From assembly GCA_000739535.1 (NCBI GenBank), contig DF820477.1, positions 135,511 to 176,984 of the forward strand: a stretch of 41,474 nt of DNA. The letters are read 5' to 3'. Position 1 is the stretch's first letter. Every line of letters begins with the position of its first letter. Made by a program: the position numbers and the translations under genes. The DNA comes from Candidatus Vecturithrix granuli (GTDB lineage: Bacteria > Moduliflexota > Moduliflexia > Moduliflexales > Moduliflexaceae). This document shows positions 25,606 through 29,078 of the stretch, in pieces. The notes beneath the pieces were generated by a model that had not been told where the DNA came from, did no database searches, and saw only the letters and a program-made list of their open reading frames with translations.

Positions 25606-25926
25606 TGTTTTTCATCATACCGCCTGTCTGCCACAGGCAGGAGTGAACGTCCCGCTCGTGACAACTCCTTTGATTTTTCGATAATTTACTCCTTGACATT
25701 TTTGGGTTGTCTTGAGGTGAGTAAAATTTAGAATAGCGTTTTAGTCAATAGAATTTAATAAAATATTTCCGTCTTTTTGAAACTCTGATCAAAGTAATGA
25801 ATTTTGAAAACTTCAAGGAAATGTCGAGGAAACGTTTTTCAAAGAAACCGGGTTTTTCGAAAAAATCCGATTTCTGGTGTGCAAAGAAATTATTTGGAAA
25901 AATGTCCGAACTATAAGGAGATTCCC
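25606..25926. promoter_or_regulatory. Divergent promoter region between lyase gene and aroE, with dispersed repeat copy B
   Basis: The 320-bp gap is AT-rich. TTGACA occurs at 25693-25698 and TAGAAT at 25729-25734, but not at ideal spacing. The segment 25824-25893 is a second copy of the hairpin repeat seen after eno: gaggaaac, then AAACCGGGTTTTT with a decayed second arm, then aaagaaatta. It lies just before the aroE ribosome binding site AAGGAG. Confidence 0.5.
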
Positions 25927-26793
25927 ATGTACTATCCTTCAATTCACACAAAGCTGGTGATCCTGTTAGGTAATCCTCTGGGACATAGCTACTCTGCGCT
26001 CATGCACAATCATGTCTTTGAAAAACTGAACATGGACTATTGCTACTGGCCGGTTGAGGTCTCGGCCGAAAATTTACCCACAGTATTTGCCGGATTAACC
26101 AGGATGAATGTGGCAGGTTTTAATGTGACCATCCCTCACAAAGTCCGCATCATTGCATTGCTTGACGAGATCGACCCATTGGCTTCTGTCATTGGAGCCG
26201 TCAATACGATTTGCATCAAAGAAGGGCGCACGCGCGGCTATAACACTGATGGGGAAGGCTTTCTGAAAGCATTGGAAGCCGAACTTGACATATCCACCGC
26301 CGGCAAGAATTTTTTCATTCTTGGGTGCGGCGGGGCCGCCAGAGCCATTGCCATGACGTTTGCCTTCCACGACGCCGGAAAAGTCTTTCTTTGCAACCGC
26401 ACGATCTCAAAAGCTGAGAAGCTTACTGCTGAAATTAATGAAAAAATTCGCCCTTGCGCCGAGGTCGTTCCGCAAATCTCGGCTGAAATGACTCCGGCGT
26501 TACGCACCTGTCAGGTGTTGGTCAATAGTACCAGCGTGGGAATGCACCCGGACGAAGATCGCATCCCGATTGACGAAGCGCTCTTATTTCAAGAGCTTGC
26601 GGTAGCCGATATTGTCTATAATCCCTTGATGACTCGTTTACTCCAGGCTGCCCAGCATACCGGCTGCCGTATTGTTAACGGACTGGGCATGTTGGTCTAT
26701 CAGGGGGCTGAAGCATTCAAACTATGGACTGGCATCACGCCTCCGGTTCGAGAGATGTTTGCGGTGCTACGTGAAGGAAAAAAGGGGACATGA
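25927..26793 (+). CDS. aroE: Shikimate dehydrogenase
   Basis: A 288-residue NADP-dependent shikimate dehydrogenase, reducing 3-dehydroshikimate. It has GNPLGHSYSALMHNHVF at the N-terminus (shikimate-binding Ser residues), the catalytic lysine in NVTIPHK near 65, NTDGEGF near 101-107, the Rossmann loop ILGCGGAARAIA near 123-134, the dinucleotide-binding NRTISKAEKL and the C-terminal NGLGMLVYQGAEAFKLWTG. The ATG at 25927 follows AAGGAG; an in-frame start 41 codons earlier falls inside the repeat and is rejected. The gene ends about 110 bp before the aromatic leader peptide that precedes DAHP synthase, so the downstream genes can be regulated separately. Confidence 0.96.
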   Translation: MYYPSIHTKLVILLGNPLGHSYSALMHNHVFEKLNMDYCYWPVEVSAENLPTVFAGLTRMNVAGFNVTIPHKVRIIALLDEIDPLASVIGAVNTICIKEGRTRGYNTDGEGFLKALEAELDISTAGKNFFILGCGGAARAIAMTFAFHDAGKVFLCNRTISKAEKLTAEINEKIRPCAEVVPQISAEMTPALRTCQVLVNSTSVGMHPDEDRIPIDEALLFQELAVADIVYNPLMTRLLQAAQHTGCRIVNGLGMLVYQGAEAFKLWTGITPPVREMFAVLREGKKGT

Positions 26794-26809: not shown

Positions 26810-26900
26810 AGATTATGTTTGTCCTTCAATTGATGAACAGTATTGATTAATTTGATGTCGAGTTGAAATGTCACATACGTATTTTTATATGGAAAGCAAG

Positions 26901-27017
26901 ATGAACGTATTCGTCCCTCATATTGAAGATATGATGATTATTCCGGTACGATATTATTTTTATTTTTGGTATTGGTCCGGGGGTGGGACGACTTTAAGCT
27001 CCTGGCAAGGAGGATAA
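26901..27017 (+). CDS. Aromatic leader peptide (putative attenuator of DAHP synthase operon)
   Basis: A short open frame of 38 codons with ATG at 26901 preceded by GGAAAG; an in-frame ATG-ATG at 26931 would give 28 codons. The peptide contains eight consecutive aromatic codons, YYFYFWYW, at 26952-26975, then SGGGTTLSSWQGG and a TAA at 27015-27017. It ends 24 bp before a strong intrinsic terminator and about 220 bp before DAHP synthase. Such a run is the hallmark of ribosome-mediated attenuation, as in the trp and phe leader peptides, but here all three aromatic amino acids are represented, fitting control of the shared first step. The peptide has no other likely function. Coding is inferred from composition and context, not conservation. 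Confidence 0.8.
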   Translation: MNVFVPHIEDMMIIPVRYYFYFWYWSGGGTTLSSWQGG

Positions 27018-27054
27018 AAATGCCCCTTTGCTTCCCATGCTAAAGCCCACTCTC
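26979..27054 (+). promoter_or_regulatory. Antiterminator pairing of the aro leader
   Basis: Leader bases 26979-26987 (GGGGGTGGG, spanning the Gly codons) can pair with 27046-27054 (CCCACTCTC, with two G-U pairs), and CTTT at 26992-26995 with AAAG at 27042-27045, leaving a four-base bulge. This uses the 5' arm of the terminator and so excludes it. A ribosome paused on the Tyr/Phe codons leaves the leader strand free; one that reaches the stop codon covers it. A third segment TCGTCCC (26911-26917) is exactly complementary to GGGACGA (26985-26991) and could sequester the antiterminator when translation fails. Confidence 0.65.
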
Positions 27055-27080
27055 TTTATACAGGAGAGTGGGCTTTTTTT
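27042..27080 (+). terminator. Rho-independent terminator of the aro attenuator
   Basis: A 13-bp stem (AAAGCCCACTCTC at 27042-27054 and GAGAGTGGGCTTT at 27064-27076) with a 9-base loop, followed by seven T residues. It lies 24 bp after the leader peptide stop and well upstream of DAHP synthase. It could also be read as the aroE terminator, but the leader peptide between them argues for attenuation. Confidence 0.9.
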
Positions 27081-27237
27081 ATTGTGAAGAAGGCTTTTCA
27101 GCGAATAGTGACGATCTTCATTTCACTTGACACGAGAACATTCGACAATCTACTATTCAGGCATCCAACACAAAAATTGTTTAAGCCTTTCCCTCGGGAA
27201 GAATGTGCTTAGAGGATGTTGTTGGAAGGAGCATATC

Positions 27238-28053
27238 ATGAAGAATCTGAAATTGGCGTCTCGTGAAACCAGTGAGCGCACAATCATTCAAATCGGCGAC
27301 CTGAAAATTGGACAGGATTTTCTGCTGATCGCCGGGCCATGCAGCGTTGAAAGTGAGGAACAGATGTTTGAAACCGCTCAGGCAGTCAAACAGGCCGGAG
27401 CCAATATGTTACGCGGCGGCGCGTTTAAACCCAGAACTTCCCCGTATGCGTTTCAGGGATTAGGATTGAAAGGGTTGAAAATTCTTGAAAAAGTCGGCAA
27501 AGAAATGGAACTGCCAGTGGTTACAGAAGTGCTGGATACCCGCGATGTCTCCTGGGTGTGTGAATATGTTGACGTGCTCCAGATTGGCGCCAGAAACATG
27601 CAGAATTTTTCACTGTTGAAAGAAGTTGGCAAAACTAATAAACCGGTTGTTCTCAAGCGCGGGATGTACTCAACTCTCTCTGAATGGCTCAATTGCGCCG
27701 AGTATATTTTGAATGAGGGCAACCCACAGGTCATTCTGTGTGAGCGCGGTATCCGCACCTTTGAAACCTACACCAGAAATACGCTCGATCTGAGCGCGGT
27801 GCCTGCGATTAAGGAATTGACGCATTTGCCCATTATCGTTGACCCAACCCACGGTACAGGAAAAATCAGCCTGATTCCGCCGATGAGTTTCGCCTCGGTC
27901 GTGGCTGGGGCCGATGGACTGATTATCGAAGTCCACCATAAGCCCGAAGAGGCCAGGAGCGATAAAGAGCAGGCTTTACGGCCTGAATTGTTTGCCCAAC
28001 TTTCTGCGCAAGTCTTGAAACTGAGAAAATATTACCTTGAGGAATTACAATGA
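27238..28053 (+). CDS. aroF: 3-deoxy-7-phosphoheptulonate synthase (DAHP synthase, type I beta)
   Basis: First committed enzyme of aromatic synthesis, condensing phosphoenolpyruvate and erythrose 4-phosphate. The ~271-residue product carries [15 protein letters not shown] near 30-44, [16 protein letters not shown] near 61-76, the KRGM block, the metal ligand Cys in LLIAGPC, HGTGK near 206 and [10 protein letters not shown] near 233. The length and absence of an N-terminal ACT or chorismate mutase domain indicate a type I beta enzyme probably not feedback-regulated through ACT, so transcriptional attenuation would carry the regulation. The ATG at 27238 follows GGAAGGAG. The stop codon overlaps the start of the next gene by four bases (ATGA). 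Confidence 0.95.
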
Positions 28054-29078
28054 AGAGTTACATGATTCGCGGACAAAGCGCAACGAGTCATATCCAGCTT
28101 GGCGAACCGTTTCATCACCTTGAACAATATATCGGTAAGAGAACCGCCGCAATTGTGACTGATGAAACCGTTTATAGCGTGTATCATGACCTTATGCCGT
28201 CAAAAAATATCGCCGTGATCAAGTCAGGCGAAGCTTTCAAAACACTCCAGACGGTTGAAGCCCTCTATCAGAAATTTTTGGAATATGGTCTGGATCGCGC
28301 GGCTCTGATTGTCGCTATCGGCGGAGGCATTGTGTGTGATATTGCCGGATTTGCCGCGTCCACCTATTTGCGCGGCATTTCCTTCGGATTTGTCCCCACC
28401 ACGCTGCTCGCCCAGGTTGATGCCAGCGTGGGAGGCAAGAACGGCGTCAATTTTCATGGGTATAAAAACTTGATCGGTACTTTCAATCAACCGGAGTTCG
28501 TGTTGATTGATGTTGGCGTTCTCAAAACCCTTCCTGCCAGAACCTTAGGCTGCGGTTTTGCCGAAGCCATCAAACATGGCGCTATCGCGGATGCGCAACT
28601 GTTCGCGTTCATGGAAGATCACGCCGCTGCGATCCGAAATTTAGACCCTGACTGCCTTGAACGGATTGTGAGTGATTCGATCATTATTAAATCCTCGATT
28701 GTCAATCAGGATGAAAAAGAGCATGGGGAACGCAGAAAACTCAATTTTGGACATACGGTGGGACATACCGTTGAGAACGTGCTGGGAATTCCTCACGGCG
28801 AAGCGGTTGCCATCGGAATGGTAGCTGCCGCCGAGCTTTCCCGTCAATTCGGCTATCTTACCCAGGCTGATTTCGAAAGATTAACCAATCTGCTGACCTT
28901 ATATAATTTACCGATCACGATTGATACAACAAATCGCCAGGCCTTAAAAGAAGCCCTGCACAAGGATAAAAAACGCTATGAGGAAGTTGTCAAATTTGTG
29001 CTGCTCAAGGCCATTGGAACCGCCATTGTTCAGGATGTGCCCATTGAGGAATTAAAACGACTGCTGGAGATGTTCTAA
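28050..29078 (+). CDS. aroB: 3-dehydroquinate synthase family protein (second copy)
   Basis: A 342-residue stand-alone dehydroquinate synthase. It shows [19 protein letters not shown] near 87-105, [42 protein letters not shown] near 109-151, [12 protein letters not shown], and zinc ligands in [12 protein letters not shown] and [12 protein letters not shown]. It is shorter than the AroB half of the fusion gene 5.6 kb upstream and differs in sequence, so it is not a recent duplicate. The ATGA overlap with DAHP synthase shows translational coupling, making a two-gene unit for the first two steps of the pathway. Either this or the AroKB half may be the housekeeping enzyme; a specialised secondary pathway role is possible. 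Confidence 0.93.

Follow-up and report, generated by a model that had tools for sequence, protein, structure and literature searches.

An aromatic leader peptide and a probable ribosome-mediated attenuator ahead of the DAHP synthase gene aroF in Candidatus Vecturithrix granuli, with similar leaders in other bacteria and in Micrarchaeota

The stretch of DNA analysed here, in the following called the window, comprises 41,474 nucleotides of the Candidatus Vecturithrix granuli genome and carries the aromatic biosynthesis genes aroE, aroF and aroB, with a short leader ORF and an intrinsic terminator lying between aroE and aroF (Table 1). The aroF product scored 394 bits against TIGR01361 (cut-off 268) and lacks the N-terminal regulatory domain, its residue 2 aligning with NF006421 from profile position 67 of 338. 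To our knowledge, single-domain DAHP synthases of the aroF type are generally not feedback-inhibited, so that regulating the transcript would be an obvious way to make up for this. A second DAHP_synth_1 match in the genome (L002) was rejected as a DAHP synthase, given that its translation reads like KDO-8-phosphate synthase.

Table 1. Features of the aroE-aroF-aroB region in window coordinates, and the archaeal loci with aromatic leaders
Feature	Position or locus	Strand	Remarks
aroE, shikimate dehydrogenase	25804-26793	+	TIGR00507 from residue 52; true start probably later than 25804
Candidate promoter P1	26804-26809	+	-35 TTGACA; poor -10 TCAATT, 16-nt spacer, 9/12
Leader ORF, 38 codons	26901-27017	+	Reads MNVFVPHIEDMMIIPVRYYFYFWYWSGGGTTLSSWQGG; stop codon 27015-27017
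Pause-type stem, predicted only	26912-26990	+	CGTCCC 26912-26917 with GGGACG 26985-26990; encloses the sensor codons
Putative sensor run, Tyr-Tyr-Phe-Tyr-Phe-Trp-Tyr-Trp	26952-26975	+	TAT TAT TTT TAT TTT TGG TAT TGG
Antiterminator 5' arm, predicted	26981-26999	+	GGGTGGGacgaCTTTAaGC region; folding and complementarity
Antiterminator 3' arm, predicted	27039-27054	+	GCTAAAGCCCACTCTC; overlaps the terminator 5' arm
Intrinsic terminator	27042-27076	+	15-bp stem, 5-nt loop, T-tract
Promoter-like site P2	27127-27156	+	TTGACA-18-TACTAT, 10/12; between terminator and aroF
aroF, single-domain class I (beta) DAHP synthase	27238-28053	+	TIGR01361, full length
aroB, 3-dehydroquinate synthase	28050-29078	+	TIGR01357; 4-nt overlap with aroF
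Micrarchaeota leader loci	L034-L038, L045, L046, L050, L059, L070, L101, L104, L118, L119, L123, L125-L127, L129, L130		About 70-150 nt 5' of aroF

The ORF, its codon run, the terminator and the gene behind it were all observed directly. As an earlier sequence-only reading of this DNA had claimed, eight consecutive aromatic codons stand in a short frame, which is followed by an intrinsic terminator and then by the DAHP synthase gene. The plausible ribosome binding site that it also described was overstated, since only a weak GGAAAG (26891-26896) is found 4 nt 5' of the ATG at 26901; alternative in-frame ATGs lie further upstream at 26889 and 26868. Across all six frames of the window, the run is the only one with at least six aromatic codons. 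When the whole window was shuffled with its dinucleotides preserved, runs of at least six codons arose 0.08 times per window and runs of at least seven never. Two features expected of a ribosome-mediated attenuator are present, namely codons for product amino acids clustered in a short ORF (Phe and Tyr, Trp being doubtful as a product) and an intrinsic terminator separating the leader from the biosynthetic gene. No convincing further leader was found in the host genome at the genes checked (pheA, ilvB and hisG). The leader might be transcribed from P1, a weak candidate under the threshold of our promoter scan, or alternatively by read-through from aroE, which ends at 26793 on the same strand.

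The leader region folds better than its shuffles (z -5.4). For modelling, the ribosome was represented as a block of several footprint sizes on a transcript just reaching through the 5' arm of the terminator. Stalls at Y26952, Y26955, F26958, Y26961 and F26964 gave an antiterminator probability of 0.98-1.0 with all footprints, and a stall at the first Trp codon (W26967) gave 1.0 with all but the largest of four footprints, for which the value was 0.44. Further downstream the probability fell as the footprint grew, ranging over 0.1-1.0 at Y26970 and 0.01-0.44 at the last Trp codon (W26973), and it was 0-0.2 with the ribosome past the run, over 26976-27009. The antiterminator was still favoured without any ribosome (0.99), and the off state was partial (0.34-0.77) with a ribosome on the stop codon; equilibrium folding disregards the order of synthesis, and these two results are therefore not decisive. 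The probability of the pause stem varied widely with ribosome position. In this model, antitermination depends on codon position as it would in a classical attenuator. Taken by itself, the antiterminator complementarity of the window was not individually significant (p 0.073), with comparable sequestration reached by 9% of shuffles.

Stronger evidence comes from related genes, in which the same anatomy was directly observed in other phyla. We surveyed 107 loci with an aroF gene of the window type and scored upstream ORFs of 10-60 amino acids for aromatic codons, a sample whose counts are not phylogenetically independent and whose combined p-values ignore shared ancestry. A search of related genomes had been suggested by the sequence-only reading. 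ORFs with at least six aromatic codons out of eight were found at 24 of the 107 loci, where shuffles gave 0.3 and the minus strand 2, and with at least five out of eight at 43 (shuffles 2.9; minus strand 6), eight out of eight being seen in the window only within the sampled set. Groups with leaders, as judged by record title, include Spirochaetota, Desulfobacterota, Syntrophus, Aminicenantes and Micrarchaeota. At 23 of 33 bacterial loci with a leader, an intrinsic terminator separates it from aroF (1.7 expected), compared with a terminator at 5 of 58 loci without one. Across 23 loci, the segment behind the run can pair with the terminator's 5' arm beyond what shuffles give (combined p 4e-15 by Fisher's method; 13 loci <0.05 on their own), as in GTCCATCCGG with CCGGGTGGAC in Desulfobacterota or GCACCCATGG with CCATGGGTGC in Syntrophus, and a sigma-70-like promoter lies directly 5' of the leader in 18 of 31 cases (5.2 expected). 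The leaders of Spirochaetota, Desulfobacterota, Syntrophus and other groups thus share with the window the aromatic run, the terminator and the complementarity behind the run, mostly ahead of a single-domain aroF, although the peptides themselves (e.g. RFFFSFRSVHP, FGYFYFYFYG) have no recognisable similarity to that of the window beyond the aromatic run. Eight Desulfobacterota leaders (L049, L055, L075, L079, L083, L088, L091 and L108) have a common motif around FFF.FRSVHP, and in several of them the Phe codons lie within a hairpin like GGACGCTTC/GAAGCGTCC.

The nearest aroF, from candidate division KSB3 DOLJORAL78 (L033), is 83% identical to that of the window, and both leader and terminator are absent upstream of it (L033/L004; the upstream sequence of L004, from genome G001, is the same, so that the two loci come from one organism or from two almost identical ones). 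This shows that the device is not common to the family of bacteria to which the window belongs. Relatives that lose the codons yet keep the terminator, a pattern named beforehand as speaking against attenuation, are not what these loci present, both elements being missing there. Given that leaders are present in some relatives and absent in others, the device has been gained and lost. Leaders were found with 48 of 91 single-domain and 10 of 35 extended aroF genes (Fisher p 0.017), a difference that is only suggestive because of uneven sampling. The two-domain archaeal aroF genes at L134-L137 have aromatic leaders too, and the tie between the leader and loss of the regulatory domain is therefore not strict.

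On sequence evidence, we read the locus as a ribosome-mediated attenuator that governs transcription of aroF-aroB, with a probability of about 0.78. Attenuation ahead of a DAHP synthase gene, as proposed by the sequence-only reading, is well supported by the family-wide evidence, which does not extend to the reasons given there for the sensing of all three aromatic amino acids. Coupling of transcription and translation, ribosome stalling and the amino acids sensed are inferred. RNA polymerase would transcribe the leader with a ribosome following closely. When charged tRNA-Tyr or tRNA-Phe, possibly also tRNA-Trp, is scarce, the ribosome would stall within 26952-26969 and break the pause stem, leaving 26981-26999 free to pair with 27039-27054; this pairing would tie up the terminator's 5' arm, and the polymerase would read through into aroF-aroB. 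With charged aromatic tRNAs available, the ribosome would advance over 26981-27010 and mask the antiterminator arm, so that the terminator (27042-27076) could form and transcription would end near 27080.

The main competitor to this reading accepts the leader and the terminator as real and supposes that P2 mainly drives aroF, the attenuator having a minor effect on the enzyme and just tuning read-through from aroE or P1, or yielding a short RNA; we regard this as possible, though less probable than not. P2 lies between the terminator and aroF, within a long gap of 161 nt from the terminator to the aroF ATG, and the segment containing its -35 element (TTTCRCTTGACAC, window 27121-27145; TTTCRCTTGACACnnGAAC) stands at -117 from the aroF ATG in the window and at -118 in L033, where the leader is absent. 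The two segments, from two genera and independent of the leader, are identical at 16 of 19 positions, which 0 of 500 shuffles reached. However, sites of the P2 type occur at chance level in the promoter scan (1 found, 1.4 expected), the -10 element of P2 is not clearly conserved in L033, and most relatives with a leader have a recognisable promoter 5' of it. A leader-independent promoter 3' of the terminator probably provides a basal supply of aroF, and part of aroF transcription may escape the leader; given P2, full control is uncertain. It is far less probable that the terminator simply belongs to aroE, or to a short RNA upstream, with the aromatic ORF being a T-rich coincidence. The codon run is indeed T-rich, its ribosome binding site is weak and the leader is missing in the nearest relative, but dinucleotide-preserving shuffles of the local intergenic sequence yield a run of eight at a frequency of 5e-5, and several bacterial phyla show the same association of aromatic ORF, terminator and complementarity. 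Aromatic genes in other bacteria are under T-box or riboswitch control, and direct binding of uncharged tRNA or of a metabolite might in principle control the terminator. We consider this hardly credible here, as it leaves the aromatic codon run unexplained and no Rfam covariance model matched the locus at gathering score. The sole Rfam match in the window, which comes from a KSB3-type genome, was an Acido-Lenti-1 RNA (RF01687, 45.5 bits) at positions 6-51.

Within the attenuator reading, the amino acids sensed have to be weighed separately. The argument that sensing all three aromatic amino acids fits the shared step is weakened, because TrpE/PabB (PF00425) and TrpC (PF00218) had no match in the host genome (G000) or in its family relative G001 and because stalls at the final Tyr and Trp codons were not reliably antiterminating in the model. 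Controls for this search matched in 14 of 14 cases, both families are present in the order-level relatives G002 and G003, and the host genome of 8.4 Mb is estimated to be 94% complete with 10.75% contamination, which makes the gene absence strong but not final. On the Trp side, the host genome has just TrpB-like proteins that score under the family cut-off (e.g. in L149); a chorismate mutase-prephenate dehydratase with an adjoining prephenate dehydrogenase-like gene is also present. Both organisms are probable tryptophan auxotrophs as judged by gene content and, since TrpE/PabB and TrpC are absent from them, Trp is probably no product of the pathway in the host, in which the shared step would serve Phe and Tyr only. 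Nor does the premise that classical attenuators sense one amino acid hold as it stands, given that multi-sensing has a precedent in the Phe-Tyr-Phe leader aroR of C. glutamicum (PMC4046766, PMC11802643). The chances are about even that the leader effectively senses Tyr and Phe only, its Trp codons being relics or placed where stalling is immaterial. In addition to the missing TrpE and TrpC, this fits the inability of the last Trp codon to antiterminate in the folding model and the scarcity of Trp, which makes up 12 of the 225 aromatic residues in the bacterial leaders. It is also consistent with aroR, which reportedly responds to Phe limitation and not to Tyr limitation (PMC11802643), so that some leader codons may not count. 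On the other hand, the first Trp codon (26967) antiterminates for most footprint sizes, and absence from a genome that is 94% complete is no proof. Sensing of Tyr and Phe is likely, and that of Trp doubtful.

Aromatic leaders also precede aroF at about 20 Micrarchaeota loci (e.g. FFYYFSFSYRYQENHK, GFFSFSY; motif FFSF[SG]Y). An archaeal TATA-binding protein was present in all eight Micrarchaeota genomes examined, and the L037 leader is not a bacterial contaminant, because this protein, the leader and aroF lie on one contig of 577 kb (G061:C9). Bacterial-type terminators are rare in this group (4 of 26). A hairpin, often with a U-rich loop, spans the last leader codons and the stop codon and folds better than shuffles (20 loci, combined p 5e-13, shared ancestry ignored). 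By inspection, its arms differ among loci yet remain complementary. Leader and hairpin are a candidate archaeal attenuator. That aromatic aroF leaders are one class of switch across two domains, whose Micrarchaeota version regulates the aro operon at the transcriptional or translational level without a bacterial-type terminator, is a tentative proposal to which we give slightly less than even odds.

Several amino acids are sensed by the thrL and ilvL leaders. The window resembles these in joining several related amino acids in one leader, and it differs in its aromatic mix, in preceding a first-step gene and in the pathway. With pheL-pheA and trpL-trpE of E. coli it shares leader codons, a pause stem and mutually exclusive antiterminator and terminator (predicted for the window); these systems, unlike the window, each respond to one amino acid and act on a terminal branch, and the trp attenuator is represented in Rfam as RF00513, whereas the window locus is unmatched by any Rfam model. 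In C. glutamicum, the DAHP synthase gene aroF likewise lies behind a short leader, aroR, whose aromatic codons (Phe-Tyr-Phe) stand side by side (PMC4046766), and PMC11802643, citing Neshat 2014, reports that expression rises through ribosome stalling. The window has eight aromatic residues against three, the reported aroR run is without Trp and the phylum is another; the likeness is one of analogy. In 2010, PMC2965389 described leader-peptide attenuation as demonstrated only in Proteobacteria and Actinobacteria and itself added Firmicutes, with aroF unmentioned there. Our literature search, thin on subscription journals, returned no report of an aroF leader outside Corynebacterium and none of leader attenuation in Micrarchaeota. 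The window element follows the known aroR-type precedent in a lineage for which the literature searched has no such element on record, and it probably belongs to a broader, apparently little-described class of translation-coupled switch, as judged from the related loci.

The per-codon anatomy of the leader allows a sharp test of which codons matter in the run of eight. If the archaeal cases are true, one may ask whether a stalled ribosome can control an RNA polymerase that, in archaea, stops at U-tracts. Taken together, the findings suggest that, in phyla without a prior record in the literature searched, aromatic-leader attenuation is a widespread control of DAHP synthases that lack an allosteric domain.
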